Positions 1 to 27,995 are shown, counted from the stretch's first letter. The stretch is DNA of 64,000 nt from a bacterium (GCA_029009515.1 JAQXJZ010000001.1:32122-96121); one strand, 5' to 3'. Made by a program: numbers and translations. The notes: generated by a model from the sequence alone, not told the origin.

Positions 1-1
1 G

Positions 2-2347: not shown

Positions 2348-2356
2348 GGAGCAAAT

Positions 2357-4411: not shown

Positions 4412-4420
4412 GGAGTATTC

Positions 4421-6594: not shown

Positions 6595-6609
6595 TCCAAC
6601 ATGTTTTTT

Positions 6610-8167: not shown

Positions 8168-8180
8168 CAGCCGGATTTTG

Positions 8181-8209: not shown

Positions 8210-8252
8210 TCAAAATAGTTACGAAAGTATTACGGAACTGCGGAAGGAGGCG

Positions 8253-11200
8253 ATGAAGGTGTTTGCAGCGACTGAAAAGCGGGCACAGCGATTCATCGCT
8301 TTTTTTGTGTCTGTTTTTTTGATTCTTGCTTTTATTCCTGCATATGCCTCTTCTGTCAATGGCGTTCAGGTGGTTTCGGCCTCTCTTTCCAGTGAAACCA
8401 AAACCATGAATGGTATGGTGCGTATCTATCTTTCTTCTCTGGGAAACCCTTCTACCCTGAACTTGACAGTACGCGGCAACTACAGCGTCAACGGTCAGTT
8501 TCTCTCCAGCGGTACGGCGCTGACGGTTGGTTTTGATTCCTTCAGCGGTTCCATTACGCTCGGCTATAGCGGACAAACGCGCAATATGGGCAGAAGTTTT
8601 TCCATCCGCCGCCATAGCGCCAGCGGGGCCAATGGCATTCTGATTGCGCAGGCGCGCGAAAGCCAGAATCCTTATCCGGGCGATCTGTCGTTTGAGGTGG
8701 TTGCGACCACCACCGGATATAAGCTGTATACCATCGCACATGTCTATATTGAGGACTATCTCTACGGCGTGCTGCCTTATGAAATGGGCAATTCCAGCAG
8801 CCTGGAGGCGCTCAAGGCGCAGGCGGTTGCCGCACGTACCTATACGGTGCGTATGATGAGCCGCCGTGCTTCCGGCATGTACGACGTGGTGGATACCACC
8901 AGCGATCAGGTTTACCGTGGCACGCCTTCGGGCAACGCCAACTGTGTCAGCGCTGTGGATGCCACCCGCGGTATTGTGCTGATGTATGGCTCTGAATACA
9001 TCACTACCTACTATTCTGCAAGCAACGGCGGTCAGACAGAAACCGCGCGCGGCGGTACGAGCTATGCCTACATGAAGGTAAAAGACGATCCCTTCGATTA
9101 TGCCAATCCCAATTCCACCGTCAAAAGCAAAACCATCTATGCTGATCTGACCAATCCGTCCAATCCTGCACAGCTCGTGAGCCTGCTCAAAACAAAAGCT
9201 GCCAGCAAGCTCAATCAGATGGGCTATTCTGCAAGCTCTTCCAACACAAGGCTGCTTACACTGAAAAGCATAACGCCCCATACCCCCATGTATGCATCGC
9301 CCAGCAGGCTGTACACAAAGCTCGATTTTTCCATGACGGTTGCAACGCCGGCTGTTTCGGGCGTTAATTTGACTGTTACCTGCGATATTTTTGATGAGCT
9401 GGAAAGCATTCTGTCCATGGGCATCCAGTCCTCGGACAATGAGTTGTGGAGCGTGGCCACCGGCACAAACAGCTTCCAGCTGCAGGCACGGCGCTATGGT
9501 CATGGTATGGGCATGAGTCAGCGCGGCGCAATGTACATGGCAAAGCTAGGCTACACCTACGACCAGATTCTTGGTTTTTATTTTGACGGCTGCAGGCGTG
9601 TGCGGCACAGCTTTGTCCAGACGGTTCTCGATTCCTCTTCCAACGAAACGAGCACGGTACAGCCGCCGGCAGATCTGGACGAGAGTTCCAGCTATGCTTG
9701 TCGCGGAATCGTGACCCTTCCCAATGCCTCTTCTGTGCTTGGCATCCGCTCTTCCCGATCCAGCAGCGCCGCGCTTGTAGGTACCGCTGCAAACGGCGCT
9801 ATGGTGGAAGTGCTGTATAACGACGGAAACTGGTGTCAGATCCGCTTTGGTGAAACATGCGGATATGTGCCCGCCGGTTCGCTGATCATTTCCGGTTCTG
9901 CACCTCAGACACAGATGCCGGTCAGCTCTATTTTGGGCTTTGCAACCGTTACGGCTGGAGATTACGTCAATCTGCGCTCTTCCGGCAGCATGAACGGAAG
10001 AGTGCTTGGCACTGCACCTGCCGGAGCTGTATTGACGGTGTTCGGCCGTGAGGGAGCATGGGCGAGAGTGCAGTATAATGCGCTTTCTGCCTATGTCAGC
10101 ACACAGTACATCTCCGCCGTAAGCGCTTCTTATCCTTCCGGCGGTGTATCTTCCGGAAATGCATCAGCAATCATCCGCACCGAGGACGGCGTCTCCAGCG
10201 TTAATCTGCGCGAGTCGCCGTCCATGGGCGCATGGGTGTTGACCCAGATGCCTTCCGGCGCGTCTGTGACGGTGCTTTCGGATGACGGTTCCTGGAGCAA
10301 GGTGATCTATCAGGGATACACAGGCTATGTGGTTTCGTCGTTTGTCTATGGTACTGAGGAAGAGCCTGTTCCGCCGGTGATGGATGACCTTCCTTCTGCT
10401 CCGCCAGTTTCCGCACAGGCAGCCATTGTAGCTACCGAATTCGGCGCGCTCAACATGCGCAGTGAGCCGCGTGCAGGCAGCCTGATTCTCACAACCATTC
10501 CCAAAGGCGTGCAGGTGCAGGTAACCTCGCGCGGAAACGAATGGTCTGCCGTTTATTACAACGGTCTCAACGGCTATGTCGTCAGCAGTTATCTCGCTTT
10601 CGAGCAGCAGAATCATCACCCGGAAACGACGCCTTCCGTGGATGCTGCCACCGTTGTCACGCCAAGCGGATGGCTGAATCTGCGCAGCGAGCCTCGTTCC
10701 GGCAGCCCCATTCTGACTACCATTGCGCCTTATGAACAGGTGAAGGTGCTTTCCTATGGCGCTGAATGGTGCCGCGTTACCTATCACAGCATCACAGGGT
10801 ATGTGATGACACGCTTCCTCTCCTTCGAAGATGAGGAAGAGCCTGAACCGGAACAGACGGTTCAGGCTACGGTAACCACTTCCTCCGGGGCGCTTAATCT
10901 GCGTCTCGAGCCCTCTGCGCTTTCGGCGGTGATCGGTCTGATTCCGCAATACGAAACCGTTACCGTCCATCAGCGCGGAAGCAGCTGGTGTTATGTGACC
11001 TATGATGGCATAAGCGGCTATGTGATGACGGATTTCCTGACCTTCGGGCCGTTTTCCGTTCCCGATGCGGACGACTCTGTCGATAGCGCCTATGTAAACA
11101 CTTCCTCCGGAGCGCTCAATCTGCGCGAATATCCCGGCAGTGCTTACCGCGTCCTCACTGCCGTTCCGCGCGGTGAAGAAGTCTCTGTACTGCAGTACGG

Positions 11201-11780
11201 AGATGAATGGTGTCAGGTGAGGTACAACGGTTGGACAGGCTATGTGATGACGTCCTACCTGAGCTGGCAGAAGCCCGAAACTCCGCCCCGGCCTGCAGAG
11301 CCTGAAAGCACTGCAGCATGGGTTGTTACGTCGTCCGGTTCTCTCAACCTGCGTGAAGGTCCTTCGGCTATGACGCCCGTGCTTGCGCTCATTCCAAGAC
11401 TTGCACAGGTTGAGATCATCGACAAGGGCAACGAGTGGAGTTTTATCCGTTATCAGAGCCAGTTTGGCTATGTGATGACGCGCTATCTCTCTGAGGAATA
11501 TCCCGCCGCGGACACGGAGATGCCCGGAACCGTCATTGCCAATGGCAGCATGAAGCTGGACGTCACCTTAACGCTGCCGCCCTATGCGCTGTATGCCGTC
11601 AATGAGACTGGCTATCCCGTTGATCTGTACCGGATGTGTGAGGAAAGCGGTACTCCTGTTGCCACCATCGAGCCTTGGGACGAAGTGGAAATCGTCCTGA
11701 TCGGCGAAGTGTGGAGTTGTGTTGCATACGAAGGAAGACAGGGATATTGTCAAACCAGATTGCTGAGTGTGATAGAATGA
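8253..11780 (+). CDS. Secreted SpoIID/LytB-domain protein with eight to nine SH3b repeats
   Basis: Probably an exported cell-wall enzyme. SpoIID is a peptidoglycan lytic transglycosylase. A signal peptide (about 1-33, FFVSVFLILAFIPAYA) is followed by a beta region and a SpoIID domain (about 150-450) with LPYEM giving Glu177 at the position of the SpoIID catalytic Glu, AQAVAARTY, YYSASNGGQTE and GHGMGMSQRGA. The rest (about 480-1175) is a chain of SH3b units, typically xLNLRxxPxxxSxVLxxIPxGxxVxV..WxxVxYxGxxGYVMTxYL. I count eight clear copies plus one divergent C-terminal copy. At 1175 residues it is far larger than SpoIID (about 340). GGAAGGAGG precedes the ATG. It overlaps trmN6 by ATGA. Confidence 0.9.
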   Translation: MKVFAATEKRAQRFIAFFVSVFLILAFIPAYASSVNGVQVVSASLSSETKTMNGMVRIYLSSLGNPSTLNLTVRGNYSVNGQFLSSGTALTVGFDSFSGSITLGYSGQTRNMGRSFSIRRHSASGANGILIAQARESQNPYPGDLSFEVVATTTGYKLYTIAHVYIEDYLYGVLPYEMGNSSSLEALKAQAVAARTYTVRMMSRRASGMYDVVDTTSDQVYRGTPSGNANCVSAVDATRGIVLMYGSEYITTYYSASNGGQTETARGGTSYAYMKVKDDPFDYANPNSTVKSKTIYADLTNPSNPAQLVSLLKTKAASKLNQMGYSASSSNTRLLTLKSITPHTPMYASPSRLYTKLDFSMTVATPAVSGVNLTVTCDIFDELESILSMGIQSSDNELWSVATGTNSFQLQARRYGHGMGMSQRGAMYMAKLGYTYDQILGFYFDGCRRVRHSFVQTVLDSSSNETSTVQPPADLDESSSYACRGIVTLPNASSVLGIRSSRSSSAALVGTAANGAMVEVLYNDGNWCQIRFGETCGYVPAGSLIISGSAPQTQMPVSSILGFATVTAGDYVNLRSSGSMNGRVLGTAPAGAVLTVFGREGAWARVQYNALSAYVSTQYISAVSASYPSGGVSSGNASAIIRTEDGVSSVNLRESPSMGAWVLTQMPSGASVTVLSDDGSWSKVIYQGYTGYVVSSFVYGTEEEPVPPVMDDLPSAPPVSAQAAIVATEFGALNMRSEPRAGSLILTTIPKGVQVQVTSRGNEWSAVYYNGLNGYVVSSYLAFEQQNHHPETTPSVDAATVVTPSGWLNLRSEPRSGSPILTTIAPYEQVKVLSYGAEWCRVTYHSITGYVMTRFLSFEDEEEPEPEQTVQATVTTSSGALNLRLEPSALSAVIGLIPQYETVTVHQRGSSWCYVTYDGISGYVMTDFLTFGPFSVPDADDSVDSAYVNTSSGALNLREYPGSAYRVLTAVPRGEEVSVLQYGDEWCQVRYNGWTGYVMTSYLSWQKPETPPRPAEPESTAAWVVTSSGSLNLREGPSAMTPVLALIPRLAQVEIIDKGNEWSFIRYQSQFGYVMTRYLSEEYPAADTEMPGTVIANGSMKLDVTLTLPPYALYAVNETGYPVDLYRMCEESGTPVATIEPWDEVEIVLIGEVWSCVAYEGRQGYCQTRLLSVIE
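9684..11777 (+). repeat. Tandem SH3b cell-wall-binding repeats (coding)
   Basis: Eight repeats of about 65-90 residues, plus a ninth degenerate one at the C-terminus, lie within the SpoIID-domain gene. Repeats 4-8 are most alike, sharing LNLR or LNMR near the start and GYVMT or GYVVS near the end. They are separated by acidic or Pro-rich linkers. SH3b domains usually bind peptidoglycan. Confidence 0.85.
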
Positions 11781-12523
11781 TGGAACAGAATTTGTTGAAA
11801 GATGGGGAGCGGGTGGATGACCTGCAACGCAACGGCCTGAGAATCATCCAAAGCCCCTCCGCCTTCCGTTTTGGTATGGATGCAGTCCTTCTTGCGGATT
11901 TCACCCGTCTGCGCCCGCGTGACCGCGTTGCGGATTTCGGAACCGGCACAGGAATTCTTCCGCTTCTGCTAAGCCAGAAGGATGAAAGCTGTACCTTTGA
12001 GGCCATTGAACTGCAGCCGGATATGGCTGATATGGCCACCAGATCCGTACGGCTGAATGGTTTGGATGACCGTATTCATGTGCATGCCATGGATATGAGA
12101 CAGGCTTATGAATTGCTTGGCTATCAGAGCATGGATGCCGTGATCTGCAATCCGCCGTATGGGAAAAAAGGAGGCACGCTGGGGAGCGAAACTGCCTCCG
12201 TGCTTCTTGCACGGCATGAAACCGACTGCACCATCGACGACGTAGCCAAAGCTTGCGCTGCATTGCTGAAGAATCACGGCAGGCTGAGCATCGTGTTTCC
12301 GGCGCAGCGGCTGCTTGAATTGTGCGATGCGCTCAGAAATCACAGGCTTGAGCCAAAGCGAATCCGCATGGTATGTGCGCATGTGGACAAGCCGCCGTAT
12401 CTTGTGATGATTGAGGCTATGAAGAATACAAAGCCGCATCTGCTATGGATGCCTCCGCTGGTAGTCTATCACGCGGATGGAACGGAAACAGACGAAATCA
12501 AGCGCATTTATCACCAGATCTGA
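11777..12523 (+). CDS. tRNA1(Val) (adenine37-N6)-methyltransferase TrmN6-like
   Basis: SAM-dependent N6-adenine methyltransferase of the YfiC/TrmN6 family. It contains the N-terminal VDDLQRNGLRIIQSP, FRFGMDAVLLADF, the SAM loop ADFGTGTGILPLLL and the adenine-binding NPPY (CNPPYGKKG). The track opens the frame at 11675, but the ATG at 11777 overlaps the preceding stop as ATGA and gives the standard N-terminus and 248 residues. The 3' end overlaps the convergent SpoVB-like gene by 26 bp. The tRNA target is taken from the family. Confidence 0.85.
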   Translation: MMEQNLLKDGERVDDLQRNGLRIIQSPSAFRFGMDAVLLADFTRLRPRDRVADFGTGTGILPLLLSQKDESCTFEAIELQPDMADMATRSVRLNGLDDRIHVHAMDMRQAYELLGYQSMDAVICNPPYGKKGGTLGSETASVLLARHETDCTIDDVAKACAALLKNHGRLSIVFPAQRLLELCDALRNHRLEPKRIRMVCAHVDKPPYLVMIEAMKNTKPHLLWMPPLVVYHADGTETDEIKRIYHQI

Positions 12524-15285: not shown

Positions 15286-16116
15286 ATGGAAAGAAGAACA
15301 CGTGTATATCCGGCCAGAAAACCCTTCAGCCGCTGGATCAGTCTTTTTTTGTTGCTTCTATCTGCTGTATTGATGGTTTCAGGCGTTGTTTTGCCGCGGA
15401 CGCAAGATGACCTTTCCATCCTTCGCATTCCGCAGGCAACCACGCCGCCTGTGGATACACCGTTTGATGATGCTCCGGCCAGCAGAGAAATCACCCTTCC
15501 TTCGTCCCAGTGGTATGCGCTGCAGCTTGGCGCGTTTGAGGATGCGGAGGCGGCCCGGAAATGCGCTGATCAATTTACTGCGCGCGGGGCAGGCGGATAC
15601 ATCTGGCAGGATGCACGCTATCGCGTTTTGGCTGCTGTATATCCTTTGAAAGAGGATGCGCAGCAGGTGAGGCAGCAATTGGATTCCCAGCATGGGGTTG
15701 ACAGCTATCTCTATTCCGTGGATCTTCCTGCGCTGAAACTTCGCCTGAACGGCATGCAGGGACAGCTGGATATCCTTGAAGCGGCCTTTGTTCACGCTTC
15801 TGATCTGGTCGTTCAATTGCAGCGTCTGAGCGTGCTGATGGATCGCCAGGAACGATCCGTCGATGAGGTTTTGACGGAAACTGCGCAGATCGGGCAGCTG
15901 CTTCAGACGGTCTCACAACGGCTGAAGCAGCGATTCACCGTTCCGCGTCCTGCGTGTGTGGAAGGCTTGATTGCCAGCTTTGACAGCTTTTTGTCCTTTG
16001 CGTTGGACATGGACAGCAGCACAAGTTTGGTGAAGCTGGGAAGCGCTTTGAAGCGCCAGACGCTGTCATCATTGCATGCGCTGAAACAGATTTACGATAC
16101 TTTAGGCAATACATAG
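15286..16116 (+). CDS. SPOR-domain membrane-anchored protein
   Basis: The basic N-terminus (ERRTRVYPARKPFSR) is followed by one membrane segment (about 17-36) and a Pro/Thr-rich linker. A SPOR domain covers about 82-150 (WYALQLGAFEDAEAARKCADQF, ending LYSVDLPAL), then an alpha-helical tail to 276. SPOR domains bind denuded septal or cortex peptidoglycan, so a role in division or spore-wall remodelling is likely. GGGAGGAG precedes the ATG. It lies only 12 nt before the DRTGG gene and may share a transcript with the hydrogenase signalling cassette. Confidence 0.8.
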   Translation: MERRTRVYPARKPFSRWISLFLLLLSAVLMVSGVVLPRTQDDLSILRIPQATTPPVDTPFDDAPASREITLPSSQWYALQLGAFEDAEAARKCADQFTARGAGGYIWQDARYRVLAAVYPLKEDAQQVRQQLDSQHGVDSYLYSVDLPALKLRLNGMQGQLDILEAAFVHASDLVVQLQRLSVLMDRQERSVDEVLTETAQIGQLLQTVSQRLKQRFTVPRPACVEGLIASFDSFLSFALDMDSSTSLVKLGSALKRQTLSSLHALKQIYDTLGNT

Positions 16117-16128: not shown

Positions 16129-16488
16129 ATGACAATCCGGGAGCTGGTTACTCTGTTGGATGCACGTGTACTCTTGGGTGAGGAGAAGCTGGATCAGGAG
16201 GTCAGTTCTGGCTTTGCCAGCGACCTGATGAGCGACGTGCTGGCTTTTGTGAACGACAAAACGGTGCTGATTACCGGTCTTACCAATGTGCATGTCATGC
16301 GCACCTGCGAAATGCTCGACATCCACTGCATTGTTTTTGCCAGGGGCAAGGTTCCTTCCGAGGAAGTGCTGGAAGAAGCCGAAGAACTGGGCATTGTGGT
16401 AATGACCACCAAACATACCTGCTACAACACCTGCGGCCTGATGTATCAGGCTGGAATTCGCGGTACTGATCGCCGCACCGGCGCCTGA
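16129..16488 (+). CDS. DRTGG-domain protein 1
   Basis: A 119-residue stand-alone DRTGG-type domain (TIRELVTLLDARVLLGEEKLDQEV). DRTGG domains also occur in phosphotransacetylase and CBS proteins, where they probably bind ligands; their role next to hydrogenases is unknown. AGGAGG precedes the ATG. It is the first gene of a five-gene cassette (DRTGG, HATPase, sensory hydrogenase, DRTGG, PHP) that recurs beside HydABC in clostridia. The C-terminal half has CYNTCGLMYQAG, similar in layout to the second DRTGG protein. Confidence 0.8.
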   Translation: MTIRELVTLLDARVLLGEEKLDQEVSSGFASDLMSDVLAFVNDKTVLITGLTNVHVMRTCEMLDIHCIVFARGKVPSEEVLEEAEELGIVVMTTKHTCYNTCGLMYQAGIRGTDRRTGA

Positions 16489-16505
16489 GCGCAGAAAGAG
16501 GACAA

Positions 16506-16937
16506 ATGATGCAAGGAAGTATCTTGAGCCATTCTTATGATGTGAATGCCGGCGAATTCCAGACGGCGGGCGACGCCTCTGCCAGCATCAAGCGCAAACT
16601 GAAGCAGATTGGTGTGAACAGCACGGTTCTGCGCAGAATTGCCGTTGCCAGCTACGAGGCTGAACTCAACCTGATCATTCACAGCCACGGCGGAAAGCTG
16701 ACGCTGGATATGACGCCTGAAGCCATTATCCTGACCTCTTCCGATGTTGGTCCCGGTATTGCTGATATCAGCAAGGCCATGCAGGAGGGTTATTCTACCG
16801 CGAGCGAAGAGGCCCGCGATCTGGGTTTTGGCGCTGGTATGGGTCTGCCCAACATGAAGCGCAATGCGGACACCTTCGGCATTGAAAGCGAACTGGGCAA
16901 GGGCACGACCATCCAGATGGGATTTAGCCTGAAGTGA
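16506..16937 (+). CDS. Anti-sigma-factor-like HATPase (RsbW type)
   Basis: A 143-residue GHKL ATPase domain without histidine-kinase dimerisation helices. Motifs are AVASYEAELNLIIHSHGG (N-box region), SSDVGPGI (G1) and GFGAGMGLPNMKRNAD (G2), ending in GKGTTIQMGFSL. RsbW/SpoIIAB-type proteins phosphorylate anti-sigma-factor antagonists or bind sigma factors. A role here in passing on the sensory hydrogenase state is inferred from position. It starts 17 nt after the DRTGG gene. An adjacent ATG at 16509 is an alternative start. Confidence 0.82.
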   Translation: MMQGSILSHSYDVNAGEFQTAGDASASIKRKLKQIGVNSTVLRRIAVASYEAELNLIIHSHGGKLTLDMTPEAIILTSSDVGPGIADISKAMQEGYSTASEEARDLGFGAGMGLPNMKRNADTFGIESELGKGTTIQMGFSLK

Positions 16938-16962
16938 CGCTCCGTAGCGTTGGAGGTTTTTG

Positions 16963-18267
16963 ATGAATACCAAACGTTTTCACTCGGTACGCCTTGACAA
17001 GGAAAAGTGTAAGGCGTGTACAAACTGTCTGAGACGCTGCCCTACAGAAGCCATCCGTGTGCGCGGCGGAAGAGCGCACATTATTGATGAGCGCTGCATT
17101 GACTGCGGCGAATGCATCCGCGTATGCGAATATCATGCCAAGTATGCGCAGACGGATCCGCTGGCCTGCATCAACCGCTTCAAGTACAAGATTGCACTGC
17201 CTGCGCCGGCCCTGTACGGCCAGTTCAAGCATCTTGTTGGCGCGTCGCAGGTACTGGAAGGGCTGCTCAAAATCGGCTTTGACGAAGTGTTTGAAGTCGC
17301 GGAGGGGGCAGATATCGTCACGCGCGCCATCCGCGAGCGCATGCGCAATATTGATCGCAGCAAATATCCTATCATTTCGTCGGCCTGTCCTGCCATTGTG
17401 CGTCTGATTCGTGTGCGTTTCCCGGATCTGATCCCGCACATCATCGACGTGCGTCAGCCCATGGAAGTGGCTGCCATGGTTGCCAAGCAGGAATTCTGCA
17501 AGCGCAACGATGTACCGCCGGAAGAGGTTGGCTGTTTTTTCATCACGCCCTGCGCGGCCAAAATGACCGCCATCCGCAATCCCATCGGTCATGAGACTTC
17601 CGCTGTTGATGGCGCTATTTCCATGATGGAGATTTACGGTCTGCTCAGCAGCCAGATGAAGACCATTCCGCTGGATACCAACATCTCGCGTGCCACTGCC
17701 TATGGCGTTGGCTGGGCCAACAGCGGCGGTGAAGCGGCTGCCGTGTGCCCGGAGCACAGCATGAGCGTAGACGGCATTGAAAACGTCATACGCGTGCTGG
17801 AGGAAATTGAAAACGATAAGCTGCCGGATTTGGTTTTCTTTGAAGGATCGGCCTGTACCGGCGGATGTGTTGGCGGGCCGCTGACCTTTGAAAACAACTA
17901 TATCGCCCGTGGAGCCATCCGCACGCTGATGCATGGCTGTGACATTACCCATCCTGATGAAAAGGTGAAGGTTTCCACCCTGAACAAGTACAATCTCCTG
18001 AGCGACAAGCACATCACAGCCAACAGCGCCATGAAGCTGGACGATGATATTGTGGAAGCCATGCGCAAAATTGAGCAGATGGAGGAGATTGTCAAACGTC
18101 TGCCCGGTTTTGACTGCGGCAGCTGCGGAAGTCCCACCTGCCGTACGTTTGCAGAAGATATCGTGCGCGGCTATGCCACAGAGCTGGATTGCATCCATAT
18201 CCTGAAGGACCATTTAAAGGTCATGGCACAGCAGATGGTTGAACTGGCCAAAACCACCAGAGAGTGA
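16963..18267 (+). CDS. Putative sensory [FeFe] hydrogenase with C-terminal Fe-S domain
   Basis: About 434 residues. Two [4Fe-4S] motifs (CKACTNCLRRCP, CIDCGECIRVCE) precede a hydrogenase large-subunit domain. H-cluster motifs are altered: SSACPAI instead of TSCCPxW, TPCAAK instead of MPCxxK, and EGSACTGGCVGGP for the third. The Cys that shuttles protons in catalytic enzymes (first of CC) is Ala, as reported for HydS-type sensory hydrogenases, while the cluster-ligand Cys is kept. A C-terminal four-Cys Fe-S domain (DCGSCGSPTC, then Cys 16 residues on) follows. The ATG at 16963 has GGAGG upstream; the track's TTG is one codon earlier. It probably senses H2 or redox state. Confidence 0.85.
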   Translation: MNTKRFHSVRLDKEKCKACTNCLRRCPTEAIRVRGGRAHIIDERCIDCGECIRVCEYHAKYAQTDPLACINRFKYKIALPAPALYGQFKHLVGASQVLEGLLKIGFDEVFEVAEGADIVTRAIRERMRNIDRSKYPIISSACPAIVRLIRVRFPDLIPHIIDVRQPMEVAAMVAKQEFCKRNDVPPEEVGCFFITPCAAKMTAIRNPIGHETSAVDGAISMMEIYGLLSSQMKTIPLDTNISRATAYGVGWANSGGEAAAVCPEHSMSVDGIENVIRVLEEIENDKLPDLVFFEGSACTGGCVGGPLTFENNYIARGAIRTLMHGCDITHPDEKVKVSTLNKYNLLSDKHITANSAMKLDDDIVEAMRKIEQMEEIVKRLPGFDCGSCGSPTCRTFAEDIVRGYATELDCIHILKDHLKVMAQQMVELAKTTRE

Positions 18268-18278
18268 GGAAATGGAAA

Positions 18279-18626
18279 ATGACTGTACGCGAATTGATGA
18301 CCACCATTGGTGCTACCTGCGTGAACCCCGAAGCCAATCTGGACGCCGAAATCACCTGCGGCTACTCCTGCGATCTGCTCAGCTGGGTGCTGGCGCACGG
18401 CAAGGCTGGCATGGCCTGGTGCACCGTTCAGACCCATGTCAATGTAATTGCTGTTTCCGTGCTGATGGAAATGGCCTGCGTTATTCTGGTCGAAGGCGTT
18501 GAGCCGGAAGAAGCCTCGCTTAAAAAGGCGATTGACGAAGAAATGCCTATTCTTTCCACCAGCAAAACCGCTTACGAGGTGTGCGTGCTGATGGGCCAGG
18601 CCGGCGTGCTGCCGCCCGCTGAATAA
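18279..18626 (+). CDS. DRTGG-domain protein 2
   Basis: A second small DRTGG-type protein of 115 residues (MTVRELMTTIGATCVNPEANLDAEI), paralogous to the one at 16129. Both start TxRELxT and end in a YxxC..LM.QAG stretch. The ATG at 18279 is preceded by GTGAGG and gives an N-terminus matching the paralogue; the track's earlier start is unlikely. It lies 11 nt after the sensory hydrogenase. The presence of two paralogues suggests a heterodimer or two ligands (inference). Confidence 0.8.
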   Translation: MTVRELMTTIGATCVNPEANLDAEITCGYSCDLLSWVLAHGKAGMAWCTVQTHVNVIAVSVLMEMACVILVEGVEPEEASLKKAIDEEMPILSTSKTAYEVCVLMGQAGVLPPAE

Positions 18627-18628
18627 CC

Positions 18629-19336
18629 ATGGGCGCTTTTTGTGATCTGCACATGCACAGCTGCCTTTCGCCCTGTGCGGATGATGAGATGACGCCGTGG
18701 AATATGGTTGGCATGTCAAAAATCAAGGGGCTGGATGTGATTGCCGTTACGGACCATAACGCCTGTCTGAATGCCGAAGATGCTATGGCAGCAGGCAGGG
18801 AATATGGGGTAGAGGTGATTCCGGGAATGGAAATCACCAGCCGCGAAGAAGTGCATATCCTGGGCTATTTCTACACGCTTGAGGATGCTCTGAAAGCAGG
18901 AGAAGAAGTATATGCGCATCTTCCTGCGATTGATAACAATCCGCTTCTCTTTGGCAATCAGATCATCATGCGTGACGGCGATACTCCCAGCGGAACGCTT
19001 GACAAACTGCTGATCAACGCAACGGATCTCAGCGTGGATGAGGTTTGCGAGCTTGTGCGAAGGCATCACGGCGTTCCTGTGCCAGCGCATATCAACCGCG
19101 GCAGCAATGGTATGATCGGCGCCCTCGGTTTGATGCCCTTTCTGCCGGAATATCCGGTGGTTGAGGTCTACAAAGGCGTTGATTGCCCCGCCTATGCCAT
19201 GAAAGGTCGTTTTTTGCTGCACTCGAGCGATGCGCATCACCTGGAAGACATTCAGGAACAGGTGTTTGAGCTGGATACGGAGCCTACAGCGCAAGCAGTT
19301 CTCAAGTTAATTGAAAAAATGAATCAGCCGATCTGA
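18629..19336 (+). CDS. PHP-domain phosphoesterase
   Basis: A 235-residue PHP-domain protein. Metal-binding motifs are DLHMHSCLSPC (N-terminus), VTDHN, a His in PAHINRG and the C-terminal SSDAHH. PHP proteins are metal-dependent phosphoesterases; the TrpH/YciV group acts on nucleotides such as pAp. It starts 2 nt after the second DRTGG gene and is the last gene of the signalling cassette, ending at a terminator. A signalling-nucleotide substrate is possible but unproven. Confidence 0.85.
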   Translation: MGAFCDLHMHSCLSPCADDEMTPWNMVGMSKIKGLDVIAVTDHNACLNAEDAMAAGREYGVEVIPGMEITSREEVHILGYFYTLEDALKAGEEVYAHLPAIDNNPLLFGNQIIMRDGDTPSGTLDKLLINATDLSVDEVCELVRRHHGVPVPAHINRGSNGMIGALGLMPFLPEYPVVEVYKGVDCPAYAMKGRFLLHSSDAHHLEDIQEQVFELDTEPTAQAVLKLIEKMNQPI

Positions 19337-19340
19337 AGCA

Positions 19341-19379
19341 AGCGCCAGATAACACAAAAGATGGTATCTGGCGCTTTTT
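19341..19379 (+). terminator. Terminator of the sensory cassette
   Basis: Perfect 11-bp stem AGCGCCAGATA/TATCTGGCGCT followed by TTTTT. It separates the regulatory cassette from the catalytic hydrogenase operon. Confidence 0.92.
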
Positions 19380-19470
19380 GTACATAACAGATAAATATTC
19401 GCGCGTTTCTGGCATATTAAATAAAAAATTCACAAATTCTATCAAAAAGCGTGCAATTCCAAACAAAGTA

Positions 19471-19479
19471 TGATATAAT
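19471..19479 (+). promoter_or_regulatory. Extended -10 promoter of the hydrogenase operon
   Basis: TGATATAAT (TG-n-TATAAT) lies 65 nt before the NuoE-like start; the -35 (GTGCAA) is weak. The leader just downstream holds TGTACGTGTGTACA (two TGTAC units 3 nt apart). A TTCACAA sequence at 19429-19435 resembles one half of a Rex site. Either could be a regulatory site; neither is proven. Confidence 0.6.
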
Positions 19480-19543
19480 ATTCACGATGTGTACGTGTGT
19501 ACATTTCGGTTCGCAACATTAATGGAGGAGGTCTCAGGCTGCC

Positions 19544-20017
19544 ATGTCCAATCATAACGAAAAATATGAAAAGCTGGCGGAAGTCATTCAGGCTCACAAG
19601 GAGCAAAAGGGCGCGCTGATGCCTGTGCTTCAGGAAGCACAGAACATCTTCGGCTGCGTTTCCGAAGACGTTCAGAAGGTGATTGCGGAGGGCCTTGGTG
19701 TGACTCTCAGCGAAGTCTACGGCGTCGCTACTTTCTACTCTCAGTTCTCTCTGCAGCCCAAGGGCAAGTACGTTGCCGGCGTTTGCCTCGGTACCGCCTG
19801 CTACGTCAAGAACTCTCAGAAGGTGCTGGATAAGCTGTGCTCCGAGCTGGGCATTCAGCCTGGTCAGACTACTGCTGATGGTCTGTTCTCCGTTCAGGCT
19901 ACCCGCTGCCTGGGCGCCTGCGGTCTGGCTCCGGTCATGATGATCAACGACGATGTTTTCGGTCGTCTGACTGAAAATGAAGTTCCCGGCATCATTGCCA
20001 AGTACAAGGCTTCGTAA
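19544..20017 (+). CDS. hydC: NAD-linked [FeFe] hydrogenase, NuoE/HydC-like [2Fe-2S] subunit
   Basis: A 157-residue thioredoxin-like ferredoxin. The four [2Fe-2S] ligands are in VCLGTACYVKNS and TRCLGACGLAPV. It passes electrons inside the HydABC complex, which couples NADH and ferredoxin to H2. GGAGGAGG precedes the ATG. It is first of a five-gene operon with strongly biased codon use (CTG, AAG, ATC), suggesting high expression. Confidence 0.93.
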   Translation: MSNHNEKYEKLAEVIQAHKEQKGALMPVLQEAQNIFGCVSEDVQKVIAEGLGVTLSEVYGVATFYSQFSLQPKGKYVAGVCLGTACYVKNSQKVLDKLCSELGIQPGQTTADGLFSVQATRCLGACGLAPVMMINDDVFGRLTENEVPGIIAKYKAS

Positions 20018-20020
20018 ACC

Positions 20021-20569
20021 ATGCGTGATCTGAGCATGCATGTTCTGGATATTGCCCAGAACAGTATCAAGGCTGGCGCTGCGCTGGTTACCGTTTCCTT
20101 CACGATGGATGAAAAAGGCGTGCTGACCTTTTCTGTTCTGGATGACGGCTGCGGTATGGCGCCTGATTTCCTGGCTCGTGTAACCGATCCATTCACCACA
20201 ACGCGTACCACGCGCAAGGTTGGGCTTGGCATTCCCATGCTCAAGCAAAGCGCTGAAATGTGCGGCGGGGCGTTTGGCATCGAAAGCGAAGTGGGGAAAG
20301 GAACCTGCATTCACGCCTCCTTTGATACCAGAAACATCGACTGTATTCCTTTGGGAGACATTTGTGATTCCCTGCTGTCGCTGGTCGTGCTCAATCCCAC
20401 TCAACCCGAATTCCTTTTCCAGGCTGAAGCCCCCGGAATGGAAGCCTGTTTTGATACAAGACAGCTTCGTGAGGTGCTTGGCGGCGTTCCGCTCAATGAG
20501 CCGGATGTCATCGCCTGGATGAAGGACAGTATCGACGAAGAATTCAAACCAATTTTGGAGGTGTCCTGA
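20021..20569 (+). CDS. HATPase-domain protein in the hydrogenase operon
   Basis: A 182-residue GHKL ATPase. The N-box is LDIAQNSIKAGA, G1 is DDGCGM, and F/G2 is DPFTTTRTTRKVGLGIPMLKQSAE, close to sensor-kinase ATPase domains. There is no dimerisation/phosphoacceptor helix or input domain. A C-terminal extension of about 70 residues has no motif I know. It sits 3 nt after hydC, inside the hydrogenase operon. This small ATPase is commonly found at this spot in clostridia; its role is not established. Confidence 0.82.
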   Translation: MRDLSMHVLDIAQNSIKAGAALVTVSFTMDEKGVLTFSVLDDGCGMAPDFLARVTDPFTTTRTTRKVGLGIPMLKQSAEMCGGAFGIESEVGKGTCIHASFDTRNIDCIPLGDICDSLLSLVVLNPTQPEFLFQAEAPGMEACFDTRQLREVLGGVPLNEPDVIAWMKDSIDEEFKPILEVS

Positions 20570-20572: not shown

Positions 20573-20947
20573 ATGAAGTCTCTGGCTGAATTGGAAGCGA
20601 TCCGCGCTAAGACCCTTGAAAGGGTTGCCATGCGCAAGGAAGGCGACAATGCCATTCGCGTGGTCGTGGGCATGGCTACCTGCGGCATCGCTGCCGGCGC
20701 TCGTCCTGTTATGCTCAAGTTCCTCGAGGAAGTCCAGAAGCGTAACCTGCAGAACGTGACCGTTTCTCAGACCGGCTGCATCGGCATGTGCCGTCTGGAG
20801 CCCATGCTGGACGTCATCGTTCCCGGCAAGGAAAAGGTTACCTACGTGAAGGTTAATCCCGACATGGTGTCCCGCATTGTTGCCGAGCACATCGTCAACG
20901 GCCGTCCTGTTCAGGAATACACCATCGGCGCCGCTGAAGGCAAATAA
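20573..20947 (+). CDS. (2Fe-2S) thioredoxin-like ferredoxin domain protein
   Basis: A 124-residue protein resembling the N-terminal ferredoxin domain of the NuoF-like subunit. It has MATCGIAAGAR and TGCIGMC, so only three cysteines are visible in the cluster positions; the second Cys of the first pair is missing. Homologues beside HydB often share this pattern. It lies between the HATPase and NuoF-like genes, spaced 3 and 21 nt. It may be an accessory electron carrier or an assembly/signalling partner (inference). Confidence 0.82.
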   Translation: MKSLAELEAIRAKTLERVAMRKEGDNAIRVVVGMATCGIAAGARPVMLKFLEEVQKRNLQNVTVSQTGCIGMCRLEPMLDVIVPGKEKVTYVKVNPDMVSRIVAEHIVNGRPVQEYTIGAAEGK

Positions 20948-20968: not shown

Positions 20969-22759
20969 ATGGATCTTTTTCGCGCACATGTACTTGTCTG
21001 CGGCGGTACTGGCTGTACTTCGAGCGGCTCTGCTGAGCTGATCGCCCGTTTCGAAGAGCAGATTGCCAAGAACGGCCTGGACAAGGAAGTTAAGGTTATC
21101 CGCACCGGCTGCTTCGGTCTTTGCGAAGCCGGCCCCGTTGTTATTGTGTATCCCGAAGGCACCTTCTACAGCCGCATCCGCGTGGAAGATGTGGACGAGA
21201 TCGTCTCTGAGCATCTGCTCAAGGGCCGTACTGTTCAGCATCTGGTCTACAAGGAGAAGGCCGACGAAGAACAGCATGCCACTCTGGAGAACATCGACTT
21301 CTACCGTCCCCAGATGCGTCTTGCTCTGCGCAACTGCGGCGTGATCGACCCTGAGAACATCGACGAGTACATCGCTTTTGACGGTTACAAGGCTCTGGCC
21401 AAGGTTCTGACCGAGATGTCTCCCGAAGATGTCATTCAGGAAATGATCAAGTCCGGCCTGCGTGGTCGTGGCGGCGGCGGTTTCCCCACCGGCAAGAAGT
21501 GGCAGTTTGCTGCGGCTTCCAAGTCCGAGCAGAAGTACATCATCTGCAACGCTGACGAGGGCGACCCCGGCGCGTTCATGGATCGCTCCATTCTGGAAGG
21601 CGACCCGCACTCTGTGATCGAAGCCATGGCCATCGGCGGCTACGCCATCGGCGCCTCCGAAGGTTATGTGTACGTCCGTGCTGAGTATCCCATCGCTGTT
21701 AAGCGTCTGCAGCACGCTATCAACCAGGCCCGTGAATATGGCCTGCTGGGCAAGAACATCTTTGGCACCGGCTTTGACTTTGATATCTTCATCCGTCTGG
21801 GCGCTGGCGCTTTCGTCTGCGGCGAAGAAACTGCTCTGATGCGCTCCATCGAAGGTATGCGCGGCGAGCCCACTCCCAAGCCTCCGTTCCCCGCTGTCCG
21901 CGGTCTGTTTGACAAGCCCTCCAACATCAACAACGTTGAGACCTATGCCAACATCCCGCTGATCATCAACAAGGGCGCTGACTGGTTCACCAGCATCGGT
22001 ACTCCTGGCAACAGCGGCACCAAGGTGTTCGCTCTGGGCGGCAAGATCAACAACACTGGTCTGGTCGAAGTTCCCATGGGCACTCCTCTGCGCGACGTCA
22101 TCTACAAGATCGGCGGCGGCATCCCCAACGGCAAGGCCTTCAAGGCTGTTCAGACCGGTGGTCCTTCCGGCGGCTGCATCCCCGCTGAGAACCTGGACAT
22201 CGCCATCGACTATGACTCTCTGACCGCGATCGGCTCCATGATGGGTTCCGGCGGTATGATCGTCATGGACGAAGACAACTGCATGGTTGACATCGCTCGC
22301 TTCTTCCTTGACTTTACCGTCGATGAGAGCTGCGGTAAGTGCACTCCCTGCCGCATCGGTACCCGCCGTATGCTGGAGATCCTCGAGCGCATCACCGAGG
22401 GCAAGGGCGAAGAAGGCGACATCGAGAAGCTGGAAGCTCTGGCTGCCAACATCAAGGCAACCGCTCTGTGCGGCCTGGGCCAGACTGCTCCCAACCCCGT
22501 TCTGTCTACGCTGAAGTACTTCCGTCATGAGTACGAGGCGCACATCAAGGAGAAGCGCTGCCCCGCGCATCACTGCCAGAAGCTGCTCAACTACGAGATC
22601 ACTGACAAGTGCCGTGGCTGCACCGCTTGCGCCCGTGTTTGCCCCGTCAATGCCATCACCGGCAGCGTGAAGGAAATGCACCACATCGACACCACCAAGT
22701 GCATCAAGTGCGGCTCCTGCATGGAGAAGTGCCGCTTTGGCGCCATCGTCAAGAACTAA
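20969..22759 (+). CDS. hydB: NAD-linked [FeFe] hydrogenase, NuoF/HydB-like flavin subunit
   Basis: A 596-residue subunit with the NADH/FMN site. The N-terminal [2Fe-2S] thioredoxin-like domain (about 1-100) has VCGGTGCTSSGS and TGCFGLCEAGP. The FMN/NADH domain has GRGGGGFPTGKKW, CNADEGDPGAFMDR and GAYVCGEETAL-like GAFVCGEETALM. The [4Fe-4S] site is ESCGKCTPCRIGTRRM. Two C-terminal [4Fe-4S] motifs are CRGCTACARVCP and CIKCGSCMEKC. The domain order matches bifurcating HydB. AAGGAGG precedes the ATG. Confidence 0.95.
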   Translation: MDLFRAHVLVCGGTGCTSSGSAELIARFEEQIAKNGLDKEVKVIRTGCFGLCEAGPVVIVYPEGTFYSRIRVEDVDEIVSEHLLKGRTVQHLVYKEKADEEQHATLENIDFYRPQMRLALRNCGVIDPENIDEYIAFDGYKALAKVLTEMSPEDVIQEMIKSGLRGRGGGGFPTGKKWQFAAASKSEQKYIICNADEGDPGAFMDRSILEGDPHSVIEAMAIGGYAIGASEGYVYVRAEYPIAVKRLQHAINQAREYGLLGKNIFGTGFDFDIFIRLGAGAFVCGEETALMRSIEGMRGEPTPKPPFPAVRGLFDKPSNINNVETYANIPLIINKGADWFTSIGTPGNSGTKVFALGGKINNTGLVEVPMGTPLRDVIYKIGGGIPNGKAFKAVQTGGPSGGCIPAENLDIAIDYDSLTAIGSMMGSGGMIVMDEDNCMVDIARFFLDFTVDESCGKCTPCRIGTRRMLEILERITEGKGEEGDIEKLEALAANIKATALCGLGQTAPNPVLSTLKYFRHEYEAHIKEKRCPAHHCQKLLNYEITDKCRGCTACARVCPVNAITGSVKEMHHIDTTKCIKCGSCMEKCRFGAIVKN

Positions 22760-22780: not shown

Positions 22781-24526
22781 ATGGCTAATATGATTCCGCT
22801 TACCATTGATGGCGTGAAGGTTGAAGTTCCTGCTGGTACTACGGTTCTTGAGGCTGCCCGTATCGCCAATGTGAACATCCCCACGCTCTGCTATCTGAAG
22901 GATATCAACGCTACCGGCAACTGCCGTATCTGCGTTGTGGACACCGGCGCCCGTGCTCTGCAGGCTGCCTGCGTTCTGCCCGTGACCCCCAACATGGTGG
23001 TCAAGACCAACACTCCTGCCGTGCGCGCCGCCCGTAAGCTCAACCTCGAGCTGATCCTGAGCAACCACGACAAGAAGTGCCTGAGCTGCTCCCGCAGCCA
23101 GAACTGCGAACTGCAGAAGCTGTGCCTGGATCTGGGCGTTGAGAACGGCGATCGTTTCGCTGGTGCTCAGAACAAGTACGAAATCGACCTGTCTTCTCCC
23201 TCCGTCGTGCGCGACAACAACAAGTGCATTCTGTGCCGTCGTTGCGTGGGCGCTTGCGCGAATGTCCAGAAGATTGGCGTTATCGGCGCCATGAACCGCG
23301 GCTTCAAGACCGCTATCGGCAGCCCCTGGGACAAGAACCTGGCTGAAATGGCTTGCATCAACTGCGGCCAGTGCATCGCTGTTTGCCCCGTTGGCGCTCT
23401 GACCGAGAAGACCGAAACCGACAAGGTTTGGGATGCGATCAACGATCCTACCAAGCACGTTGTCGTGCAGCCCGCTCCCGCTGTCCGCGCCGCTCTGGGC
23501 GAGGAATTTGGCCTGCCCATGGGCACCAGCGTGACCGGCAAGATGGCTGCTGCCATGCGTCGTCTGGGCTTTGACAAGGTGTTCGACACCGACTTCGGTG
23601 CTGACCTGACCATCATGGAAGAGGCCTATGAGCTGATCGACCGCATCACCAACGGCGGCGTTCTGCCCATGATCACCAGCTGCTCTCCCGGCTGGATCAA
23701 GTTCTGCGAGCACTACTATCCCGAGTTCATCCAGAATCTGAGCTCCTGCAAGTCTCCTCACGAGATGGCCGGCGCGATGATCAAGACTTACTACGCCGAG
23801 AAGGCCGGTATCGATCCCAAGGACATCGTTGTTGTGTCCGTGATGCCCTGCACCGCCAAGAAGTTCGAAGCCAAGCGTCCTGAGCTGGGCCACAACGGCA
23901 TGGCTGACGTCGATTACGTCATCACCACCCGCGAGCTCGCCAAGATGATCAAGGAAGCCGGTATCGACTTCTGCAAGCTGGCTGATGAAGACTTCGACAA
24001 GCTGATGGGCGAATCCACCGGCGCTGCCGTTATCTTCGGTGTGACCGGCGGCGTTATGGAAGCTGCTCTGCGTACCGCTTACGAAGCGATCACCGGCGAA
24101 GAGCTGAAGGACGTCAACTTCCACGCTGTCCGCGGCATGGAAGGCATCAAGGAAGCCACTGTTAAGGTTGGCGACCTGGATGTGAACGTTGCTGTTTGCT
24201 CCAGCACCGGCAAGGCTGCTGAGCTGCTCGACAGCATCAAGGCTGGCGAGAAGACCTATCACTTCATCGAGGTCATGGGTTGCCCCGGCGGCTGCGTCAA
24301 TGGCGGCGGTCAGCCCATCGTGTCTGCCCAGGTTCGCAACTGGACCGACATCCGCGCCGAGCGCGCCAAGGCTCTCTACTCTGAGGACGAGTCCAAGACC
24401 CTTCGCAAGAGTCACGAGAACCCCGAAATCAAGCAGATTTATGCCGACTTCCTCGGCAAGCCCAACAGCCACAAGGCTCACGAGCTTCTGCACACCACTT
24501 ACGAGCAGAGGGATCTGTACATCTGA
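22781..24526 (+). CDS. hydA: [FeFe] hydrogenase catalytic subunit HydA
   Basis: A 581-residue catalytic subunit. The order is an N-terminal [2Fe-2S] domain (CYLKDINATGNCRIC), a His/Cys [4Fe-4S] site (HDKKCLSCSRSQNC), two ferredoxin clusters (CILCRRCVGAC, CINCGQCIAVCP) and the H-cluster domain. Its motifs are TSCSPGW, VMPCTAKKFEAKRPE and GCPGGCVNGGGQP, then a C-terminal tail. One Cys of the usual TSCCPxW is Ser. AGGAGG precedes the ATG, 21 nt after hydB. It is the last gene, followed by a strong terminator. Maturases HydEFG are not in the window. Confidence 0.95.
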   Translation: MANMIPLTIDGVKVEVPAGTTVLEAARIANVNIPTLCYLKDINATGNCRICVVDTGARALQAACVLPVTPNMVVKTNTPAVRAARKLNLELILSNHDKKCLSCSRSQNCELQKLCLDLGVENGDRFAGAQNKYEIDLSSPSVVRDNNKCILCRRCVGACANVQKIGVIGAMNRGFKTAIGSPWDKNLAEMACINCGQCIAVCPVGALTEKTETDKVWDAINDPTKHVVVQPAPAVRAALGEEFGLPMGTSVTGKMAAAMRRLGFDKVFDTDFGADLTIMEEAYELIDRITNGGVLPMITSCSPGWIKFCEHYYPEFIQNLSSCKSPHEMAGAMIKTYYAEKAGIDPKDIVVVSVMPCTAKKFEAKRPELGHNGMADVDYVITTRELAKMIKEAGIDFCKLADEDFDKLMGESTGAAVIFGVTGGVMEAALRTAYEAITGEELKDVNFHAVRGMEGIKEATVKVGDLDVNVAVCSSTGKAAELLDSIKAGEKTYHFIEVMGCPGGCVNGGGQPIVSAQVRNWTDIRAERAKALYSEDESKTLRKSHENPEIKQIYADFLGKPNSHKAHELLHTTYEQRDLYI

Positions 24527-25618: not shown

Positions 25619-25664
25619 TATCATTGTTTGATTGTCATCAATGGATTTCACCGGAGGTGTAGAA

Positions 25665-26873
25665 ATGGATAATGTCATTATGACAAGGCTTACGGCGAAT
25701 CTTTCGGAAATAGTGGTTTATGCTGCCATCGTGGTTGTCACATTGACTGGTTTTTGCAAGTGTATTTATCCGCTGCTTCGTAATGCAGCGCTTCTCAATC
25801 GCGCAGTTGTCAAGCTGGAGAAAAGCACTGCCGCAGGCGATCGTCCTCTTTGGCGCGAAGCGCGCTTTCTTGGCAGATCTCTGCGCAATGAGTGGCAGCA
25901 GTTCCTGCTGAATGCCGGGCAGCTTGATCTTCGCGGCATGCCCTGTGATACTGGCGAATACATCAACGAAGAAACCGTCATCGACAAGCCCGGCCATGCG
26001 CAGCTTGCTGAGCTGATTCCCAGTTTACTGACTTCTCTGGGTATCCTGGGTACCTTCATGGGCTTGATGCAGGGCCTCACCAGCGTCGATTTCTCCAATG
26101 CCGAAGGTACCATTCAGAGCATTCCTCAGCTTCTGGGTGGTATGAAGTTTGCATTTGCCACGTCTGTAGCTGGCATTGCCTGTTCGCTGACATTCAACAT
26201 GTTGAATCGTATGGCTGTTGGCCGCGCTGTTCGCGCATTGGATAACTTTGAAGATGCTTTCTACGAGCTTGCCATGCCGCGTCCGCTTCAGCCCGAAGTG
26301 CAGATGATCTGCCAGAAACAGGACGATGAAGCACGGATGATTCGACTGGCAGAAAGCATCAGCAACCATGTAGCTGCATCCCTTGAAATGGCGGTCAGCC
26401 GGGCCATGAATCCGCTGACACAGTCGCTTGATACCTTCATTAAGTGCGCAACTCGTGAACAGGTTGACGGCGTACGCAGGATTGTGGGGCAGTTTGTGCA
26501 GCAGCTGAATGTAACGCTGAATGAACAGATCAGCTCTCTCGGTGAAAACATGCGTGTGGTTTCGGAAGCCCAGAAGGAAACGCAGAAAAACCTGCACAAT
26601 ACCATTGCCGCTGTACAGGCGATGTCCAATGCTGCGCAGGATATCCAGCATTCCACCAGCGAAATCGCTGCCAATATGCAGCAGCTGAGCGATGAGATGC
26701 ACATGCGCAGCGAGGCCGCTGTGAATGCGCAGGATTCTGCTGATCAGCTGGCTGTACGCCTTGAAAACCTGAGCGATTCTCTGCGCCGCATGCAGCTTGC
26801 GGTCGATGTGCTGACTGCTGAACTGAATGGAACACAGCTGCCTGTGCTGGACGACGATAACGTGGAGATGTAA
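25665..26873 (+). CDS. ZorA/MotA/ExbB-like proton-channel protein with long helical tail
   Basis: A 402-residue membrane protein. The segments are about 13-33, 117-138 (LIPSLLTSLGILGTFMGLMQGL) and 160-182 (GMKFAFATSVAGIACSLTFN), the layout seen in ZorA-type stator units. Residues about 183-402 are a helical cytoplasmic tail with coiled-coil and chemoreceptor-like stretches (ISSLGENMRVVSEAQKETQK). These proteins use ion flow to drive a MotB-like partner, which follows 15 nt downstream. GGAGG precedes the ATG at 25665; the track's 25632 start lacks a ribosome site. No Zorya effectors (ZorC, ZorD, ZorE) or flagellar genes are nearby. Confidence 0.82.
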   Translation: MDNVIMTRLTANLSEIVVYAAIVVVTLTGFCKCIYPLLRNAALLNRAVVKLEKSTAAGDRPLWREARFLGRSLRNEWQQFLLNAGQLDLRGMPCDTGEYINEETVIDKPGHAQLAELIPSLLTSLGILGTFMGLMQGLTSVDFSNAEGTIQSIPQLLGGMKFAFATSVAGIACSLTFNMLNRMAVGRAVRALDNFEDAFYELAMPRPLQPEVQMICQKQDDEARMIRLAESISNHVAASLEMAVSRAMNPLTQSLDTFIKCATREQVDGVRRIVGQFVQQLNVTLNEQISSLGENMRVVSEAQKETQKNLHNTIAAVQAMSNAAQDIQHSTSEIAANMQQLSDEMHMRSEAAVNAQDSADQLAVRLENLSDSLRRMQLAVDVLTAELNGTQLPVLDDDNVEM

Positions 26874-26888
26874 GAAGGAGGGGAGGCA

Positions 26889-27995
26889 ATGGCTCGCAGA
26901 AAGAGAAACCGTCGTATGAGCGGAAAGGCGGATGGCGGATCTGCATGGATCAGCTATTCGGATATGATGGCAGCACTGCTGTTGCTGTTTGTTCTCATAC
27001 TTTGTTACAGCCTTTACCAATACTTTATCATGCTCGAAACCAAAACAGCCGAGCTGGACGAGCAGGCCCTCCTTTTGGGCAAGCAGCAGTTAACGCTTGA
27101 CGAGCAAAAGAAGACGCTTGAAAAGCAGCAAACCACGCTTAATCTGCAGCAGACTACGCTGGAAAAACAGCAGAAAGAGCTGGAAACGCAACAGACGGCT
27201 CTGAAAACGCAGGAAACAGAGTTGTCTGCCGCGCTTACGCAGCTTGATGAGCAAAGGGGATTGCTGACCAAGCAGGAGCTGACCCTTGAAGAGCAGGAAA
27301 AGATTATCCTGGCTGCTCAAAAAGAGCTTACCACCAAAGAAACAGAACTAAAGAAAGCCAATACCGAACTTGAGACGCAGCAGAAGGCTTTGCTGGATGC
27401 AACCATCCTGCTTGGCGAACAGCAAAAAGCCATGGAAACTCAGCAGCGCAAGCTGGATGATCTGGTTGGTGTTCGCACGAAGATTGTTCGTGAGCTAACG
27501 ACCGCGCTGAATAAGGCCGCACTCAAGGCAAGTGTAGACGCCAACACCGGTGATATTGTGCTGGAAAGCGCTGTGTTCTTTGATTATGGCAAAAACACCA
27601 TCAAAGAAGCCGGTCAGGCATTCCTGGATCAGTTCATTCCCATTTACCTTGGGGTTCTGCTTCAGCCCGAATACGATGATTATCTTGGTGAAATCATTAT
27701 CGAGGGCCATACCGATACCAACGGCGAATATCTGTTCAACCTCGAACTCTCTCAGGAGCGCGCGCTGAGCGTTGCAGCGTATTGCCTGGAAATGCCTTCA
27801 CTTACGAATAACCAGTTGGAAAAGCTGCGCGAAATTCTCACTGCGAAGGGCAGAAGCGAATCCGATCCCATCTACAATGCGGATGGAACTATCAACATGG
27901 AAGCGTGCAGACGCGTTGAGTTCAAATTCCGCATGAAGGATTCCGAGATGATTGACGAAATTCGCGATATTCTGTCATCTGACGACATGCAGTAA
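26889..27995 (+). CDS. ZorB/MotB-like OmpA-domain protein with 20-heptad stalk
   Basis: A 368-residue partner of the preceding channel. The basic N-terminus is followed by one membrane helix with the conserved acidic residue (SYSDMMAALLLLFVL; Asp25), as in MotB and ZorB. Residues 56-195 form an unbroken series of 20 heptads, mostly LxxQQxx. The C-terminal OmpA/MotB peptidoglycan-binding domain (about 213-355) has ESAVFFDYGKNTI, IIIEGHTDTNGEY, LSQERALSVAAYC and RRVEFKF. This domain in a Gram-positive cell points to anchoring in the thick wall. AAGGAGG precedes the ATG. Confidence 0.85.
   Translation: MARRKRNRRMSGKADGGSAWISYSDMMAALLLLFVLILCYSLYQYFIMLETKTAELDEQALLLGKQQLTLDEQKKTLEKQQTTLNLQQTTLEKQQKELETQQTALKTQETELSAALTQLDEQRGLLTKQELTLEEQEKIILAAQKELTTKETELKKANTELETQQKALLDATILLGEQQKAMETQQRKLDDLVGVRTKIVRELTTALNKAALKASVDANTGDIVLESAVFFDYGKNTIKEAGQAFLDQFIPIYLGVLLQPEYDDYLGEIIIEGHTDTNGEYLFNLELSQERALSVAAYCLEMPSLTNNQLEKLREILTAKGRSESDPIYNADGTINMEACRRVEFKFRMKDSEMIDEIRDILSSDDMQ
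27054..27473 (+). repeat. Twenty in-register heptad repeats (21-bp coding period)
   Basis: Reading from residue 56, nearly every seventh residue is Leu (LDEQALL, LGKQQLT, LDEQKKT, LEKQQTT and so on to LDDLVGV), with Gln dominating the fourth position. No register slip is seen over 140 residues. A continuous alpha helix of this length would be about 21 nm (0.1485 nm per residue). Confidence 0.9.

Follow-up and report, generated by a model that had tools for sequence, protein, structure and literature searches.

The 64,000-nt stretch of bacterial DNA analyzed here (GCA_029009515.1 JAQXJZ010000001.1:32122-96121, hereafter "the window") encodes a real module of six parts, widespread among Clostridia and built around HydS, a sensory [FeFe] hydrogenase of known type; we have not found this form of it described. 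All six genes lie on the plus strand: those of the DRTGG-domain protein DR1 (16129-16488), the ATPase ATP1 (16506-16937), HydS (16963-18267), a second DRTGG-domain protein, DR2 (18264-18626, the family start probably being M6 at 18279), a PHP-family metal-dependent phosphoesterase (PHP, 18629-19336) and a second ATPase, ATP2 (20021-20569), which is found within the neighbouring operon of an electron-bifurcating hydrogenase. We tentatively propose that the module is a phospho-switch that reports the H2/ferredoxin redox state to ferredoxin:NAD enzymes. What is new is the near 1:1 co-occurrence of its parts, the sixth member ATP2, several gene fusions, versions linked to rnf and a linkage to Rex. 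The host assembly is clostridial (3.0 Mb, 86% completeness), the closest relatives with a name being Clostridia metagenome bins from rumen and gut.

We compared gene content across 291 Clostridia genomes and gene order across 93 non-redundant loci. HydS homologues are present in 138 of the 291 genomes. HydS and DR1 (strong matches) are shared by 135 genomes, with three carrying HydS without DR1 and two the reverse, and HydS and PHP by 134, with four and one exceptions, respectively. The genomes are related, so Fisher p-values overstate their independence, but exceptions are rare and several of them come from fragmented assemblies. DR1, ATP1 and DR2 lie beside HydS in 88-89 of the 93 loci and PHP in 86, and the order DR1-ATP1-HydS-DR2-PHP is nearly constant. 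A chance neighbourhood is rejected by this kept order and by the near 1:1 co-occurrence. Moreover, DR1 is found in 89 of 250 further genomes of the phylum, and the full module set also occurs in an Ignavibacteria bin (locus L168). A preliminary description of 16129-19336 had noted a signalling-type cassette of five tightly spaced genes that recurs in clostridia; the position, order and tight spacing of the five are as it gave them, and the recurrence holds and reaches beyond Clostridia. All five genes belong to the unit, but the unit is larger than five.

The sixth gene was overlooked behind an intrinsic terminator. This element (19340-19382, plus strand) separates the five genes from hydC, as had been noted, and consists of a 12-bp stem (-19.8 kcal/mol, z -4.5) followed by a T run; it was missed in a simple scan because its loop is long. 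About 15 of the 93 loci have the module embedded in the hyd operon, with hydC before it and ATP2 after it, and the terminator of the window is therefore a local arrangement. ATP2, a histidine-kinase/MutL-type ATPase without an H-box, is encoded between hydC and the gene for a thioredoxin-like ferredoxin. It was found in 128 of 132 genomes that have both HydA and HydS, versus 13 of 114 that have HydA without HydS, and it accompanies the module to rnf loci that lack hydABC. Because ATP2 tracks HydS and not HydA, travels with the module to rnf and in some genomes forms a single protein with PHP, we count it as a module member; judged by its distribution it is the sixth module protein, although it lies inside the catalytic operon past the terminator. 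A role for ATP2 as a hydrogenase subunit partner was rejected in view of its presence with the module at rnf loci and its rarity in genomes that have hydABC but no HydS. From these genomic patterns, we consider it highly likely that all six parts belong together.

The resemblance of ATP2 to the MutL/Hsp90 superfamily and the linkage of the module to two multi-cluster enzymes could also fit an assembly or repair factor, the proteins of which would build or protect the Fe-S/flavin complexes HydABC and Rnf. We regard this as very improbable: 101 of the 114 HydA-containing genomes without HydS also lack ATP2, which implies that assembly does not need the module, and ATP1, with its kinase-type residues intact, occurs in fusions with sensor domains. 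We return to the proposed phospho-switch and to its components, beginning with the putative sensor.

HydS (434 aa; PF02906, E 3e-37, with two 4Fe-4S motifs and PF04060) matches the putative sensory [FeFe] hydrogenases of group D (M2e) in its sequence traits, which we took from PMC8163306. All four H-cluster cysteines are kept (C142, C197, C298 and C302), as are eight cysteines of the N-terminal 4Fe-4S motifs (C16/19/22/26 and C45/48/51/55), and the C-terminal Cx2Cx4Cx16C motif (PF04060) corresponds to C385-C388-C393-C410. A Pfam search revealed no PAS domain in HydS. Position 141, equivalent by motif to the proton-relay C299 of catalytic enzymes (PMC8163306), is Ala. Position 195, one of the M353/M497 equivalents, is Thr (Thr in 150 and Ser in 74 of 227 homologues), and position 296, likewise equated by motif (PMC8163306), is Ser, the commonest residue of the family being Leu (83 of 227). 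In TamHydS, M353 and M497 are replaced by Ser and Leu, and C299 is absent (PMC8163306). HydS shares with the group D examples TamHydS, Cthe_0335, Athe_1292, Csac_1857 and Teth39_1463 (PMC8163306, PMC3561251, PMC3608648) the domain order, the missing C299, the Cx2Cx4Cx16C motif, the lack of PAS, the position upstream of a trimeric bifurcating hydrogenase and a kinase-like ATPase nearby. That group D genes precede those of bifurcating hydrogenases and have a kinase gene in the vicinity was already known (PMC3561251, PMC3608648). The group D papers name no DRTGG/PHP partners, fusions, rnf-linked versions or Rex linkage. H-cluster maturation is plausible because the host genome encodes HydF.

A second sensory hydrogenase of the host genome belongs to group C and bears a PAS domain (592 aa; locus L109, G000 contig 67, bases 1-12000). 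It adjoins genes for a SpoIIE/PP2C phosphatase and an Fe-S protein, next to adhE-like and pyruvate formate-lyase-like genes; this arrangement is reminiscent of the link between hfsB and adhE reported for Thermoanaerobacterium (PMC5707799). In two relatives, open reading frames (ORFs) of 770-782 aa that combine a HydS-like domain with a histidine-kinase ATPase (L290:13472-15781 and L259:13646-15991) lie a few kilobases away from their group D modules.

ATP1 (143 aa; PF02518, PF13581) had been described as an RsbW-like ATPase. The kinase-type fold is indeed related, but the nearest solved structure by profile is SpoIIAB (E 6e-12, compared to 1e-4 for RsbW), and the protein should not be read as an anti-sigma factor. 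Identity as an RsbW anti-sigma factor was rejected, given the better SpoIIAB match and the lack of a sigma factor; as previously noted, neither a sigma factor nor a response regulator is present in the module within the window. The match to the NCBIfam SpoIIAB model (50.5 bits) is below the equivalog cut-off of 135, and RsbT was not among the solved structures matched, so that the likeness to RsbT carries no score. Residues E51, N55, D80 and G82 are invariant in 241 of 241 homologues, while the N-box Glu and Asn, DxGxG and GxGxG are kept in 240-241 of these sequences. In RsbT, the Asp equivalent to that of ATP1 is required for kinase activity (PMC4976288). ATP1 is thus better put, on its profile matches and residues, as a SpoIIAB/RsbT-like GHKL serine-kinase-type ATPase with predicted kinase activity.

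The proposed partners of such a kinase are the two DRTGG proteins. DR1 (119 aa) matches PF07085 with 36.8 bits and DR2 with 24.1 bits, slightly under the cut-off of 25.2; the host genome has no further matches to this family beyond the DRTGG proteins of the module. DR1 features an invariant D32-L-[ML]-S35-D36 motif and T49-G-L, with S35 kept in 244 of 252 homologues, and in DR2 residues D37, S40 and N60 are invariant in 204 of 204. The DR1 model, with a predicted local distance difference test (pLDDT) score of 92, matches the DRTGG domains of 2ioj and 3l31 in Foldseek; for DR2, a tandem search of the PDB yielded DRTGG matches that were all weak. In the DR1 model, S35 is placed in a loop directly preceding a short helix, and this invariant loop is the lowest-confidence stretch of the predicted core (pLDDT block 76). 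The target serine of SpoIIAA likewise sits before a helix. By this analogy, phosphorylation of the DRTGG serines is a reasonable proposal, and we judge a serine phospho-switch to be about an even bet.

Fusions are the main evidence for the wiring, and we are fairly confident of the pairings that they suggest. DR1 is fused to ATP1 in L258, L274 and L275, DR2 to the C-terminus of HydS in L259 and L290, and PHP to ATP2 in L261, L268 and L289. For each type, two or more genomes show an uninterrupted ORF, and one example of each was checked in Pfam. An N-terminal CBS pair is joined to ATP1 in L243, L244, L245 and L282, loci without HydS; because it appears where HydS is missing, sensor input would seem to be exchangeable at the kinase. 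L249 has both HydS and CBS-ATP1. The sensor-relay-output scheme of the preliminary description gains partial support from these fusions, and its individual steps remain proposals. We hypothesize that HydS would read H2 or redox state at the H-cluster and hand a conformational signal to DR2. DR1 would be the partner and regulator of ATP1, which in turn would phosphorylate the DRTGG proteins at the invariant serine of their D-L-[ML]-S loop, these proteins filling the role that STAS proteins have in partner switching. PHP and ATP2 may jointly reset or counteract this phosphorylation. Whereas module membership, fusion pairings, intact catalytic residues and hyd/rnf swapping can be read from the sequences, we infer H2 sensing, phosphorylation, the phosphatase role and the target.

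Several observations speak against this hypothesis. Each fusion was encountered in only one to three families, a small number of lineages. The modules L194, L195 and L245 lack HydS, and L154, L156 and G037 lack PHP; since each is missing from some modules, neither is indispensable. Rather than accepting phosphate, the invariant DRTGG serines could cap a helix or contact a ligand. Finally, the redox state of the C-terminal cluster in TamHydS is unchanged by H2 (PMC13104023).

PHP (235 aa; PF02811, 37.7 bits) retains the metal ligands H8, H10, H43, E68, H76, H154, D201 and H203 in 192-193 of 193 homologues. The nearest structures to its model (pLDDT 96) are the nucleotide/nucleic-acid PHP enzymes 3o0f, EndoQ, RNase AM and 2yb1. 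This likeness, the fusion of CBS pairs to ATP1 and the fact that the closest DRTGG structures belong to the CBS-DRTGG regulatory region of a pyrophosphatase would suit a nucleotide messenger, which the DRTGG/CBS domains bind, PHP hydrolyses and the ATPases read, so that energy charge, rather than protein phosphorylation, is coupled to the redox enzymes. In this module, however, TGLxN stands where 2ioj, the sole aligned reference, has the canonical TGGDR; PHP is missing from some modules and no messenger synthase is linked to the module. This makes the nucleotide route improbable, and we retain phosphorylation of the DRTGG proteins as the preferred mechanism.

What could be the target of such a switch? 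The preliminary description read the genes as an H2/redox signalling cassette upstream of the catalytic hydrogenase operon. They do lie beside hydABC here, but they are not strictly a hydrogenase cassette, since in several lineages the module precedes rnf, and it can occur without HydS. It is found before rnf without hydABC in 10 of 113 tree rows, and the hyd/rnf label requires seven changes on the tree, at least four of them on well supported branches. In L194 and L195 the order is DR1-ATP1-DR2-PHP-ATP2-rnf, while these genomes encode HydS at a separate locus (L099 and L095), where it too neighbours rnf-type genes. The HydB profile matches RnfC at 30-45 bits. Because HydB and RnfC are homologous, the NuoF-type subunit is a candidate shared target. 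The output, to which the evidence points weakly, would most likely be exerted at the protein level on this subunit common to both partner operons (HydB or RnfC), with Rex separately setting their transcription.

The preliminary description saw no sigma factor or response regulator through which the signal could reach transcription, but a transcription factor, the NADH-sensing repressor Rex, does adjoin the module in relatives. Among the loci covered, eleven from about six lineages have a Rex gene immediately 5' of DR1 and on its strand, namely L252, L276, L282, L275, L274, L258 and L241 and, from rumen relatives of the lineage of the window, L137, L138, L140 and L149. Using base shuffles within each region as the expectation, with related loci retained, Rex-like boxes are enriched before hydC (42 of 121 loci vs. 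9.4 in shuffles), DR1 (24 of 171 vs. 9.0) and rnfC (13 of 26 vs. 3.0), while the internal control genes PHP (4 of 155 vs. 4.4) and HydA (0 of 88 vs. 1.4) are unenriched. From these patterns, Rex probably sets transcription of the hyd, rnf and module operons in many relatives. One could go further and suppose that the kinase switch itself ends on Rex, or on an unlinked sigma/anti-sigma pair, and thereby sets hyd/rnf expression by H2; in favour of this, deletion of a group C analogue alters adhE expression (PMC5707799). Yet Rex needs no partner to sense NADH, and its linkage may be plain co-regulation. The window contains neither a Rex gene nor a Rex box above chance, the two Rex homologues of the host being on other contigs, and across the 93 loci the recurrent neighbours of the module are pyrKD, rnf, an ABC transporter and shadow ORFs, with no further transcription factor among them. 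We consider this transcriptional route unlikely, although less so than the nucleotide messenger. As a separate observation, one group of genomes repeatedly shows pyrK/dihydroorotate dehydrogenase-like genes past the module (L064 and about eight other loci, +2.5 kb from HydS).

The module has parallels in further known systems. As in group C HydS/HfsB (hfsABCD; R. albus hydS), a sensory [FeFe] hydrogenase is tied to Ser/Thr phospho-signalling and catalytic hydrogenases, but group C has PAS on HydS and a SpoIIE/PP2C phosphatase, and the window module has neither. With the RsbR-RsbS-RsbT stressosome and SpoIIAA-SpoIIAB (PMC4976288) it shares a SpoIIAB-type kinase, small regulators and an exchangeable sensor domain. 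In contrast to stressosome/STAS switching, however, the window module encodes neither a STAS antagonist (or other STAS protein) nor a PP2C phosphatase nor a sigma factor, and none of these recurs beside the module in the 93 loci; DRTGG would stand in the place of STAS. The CBS-DRTGG regulatory region of Mn-dependent pyrophosphatase (3l2b, 3l31) resembles the module in its DRTGG fold and in the association of DRTGG with CBS domains, but unites them in a single enzyme; in the module they are spread over separate proteins next to a kinase, with TGLxN where 2ioj has TGGDR. In the literature we found no description of the DRTGG/PHP parts or of the wider module, in agreement with the earlier remark that no mechanism is established; the only report naming DRTGG with hydrogenase concerns an unrelated Desulfovibrio gene.

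How group D sensory hydrogenases signal without PAS is a standing question (PMC8163306, PMC13104023). The fusions point to candidate partners and the two invariant serines can be mutated, which makes the question directly testable. The rnf-linked versions broaden the proposed role from hydrogenase control to the cellular ferredoxin/NADH balance, on which it depends whether gut and industrial anaerobes make H2, ethanol or acetate, and about half of the sampled Clostridia genomes carry the module. A more speculative generalization, which we hold to be doubtful at present, is an anaerobe redox phospho-switch in which DRTGG replaces STAS, the sensor is swappable (group D hydrogenase or CBS pair) and the NuoF-type subunit of HydABC and Rnf is controlled.

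The candidate target operon follows the terminator on the plus strand in the order hydC, ATP2, Trx-ferredoxin, hydB, hydA. It encodes the NuoE-like HydC (19544-20017), the thioredoxin-like [2Fe-2S] ferredoxin (20573-20947), the NuoF-like NADH/flavin subunit HydB (20969-22759) and the catalytic group A [FeFe] hydrogenase HydA (22781-24526; NF040763, 926 bits, cut-off 765). The first H-cluster motif of HydA is TSCSPGW, the textbook form being TSCCPGW. At 19440-19480, GCGTGCAATT is common to the close relatives L114, L137 and L138 and lies about 20 bases 5' of a TATAAT-like box upstream of hydC; TGTAC-N4-GTACA, common to the window and L114, is located just past this box. At the other end, a gene for a SPOR-domain protein (15286-16116) stops 12 bases 5' of DR1; an ORF is similarly placed upstream of DR1 in L114 and L118, so that the SPOR-domain gene may share the transcript. 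Downstream of the operon, this clostridial genome carries a MotA/ExbB-like and OmpA/MotB-like gene pair at 25632-27995.

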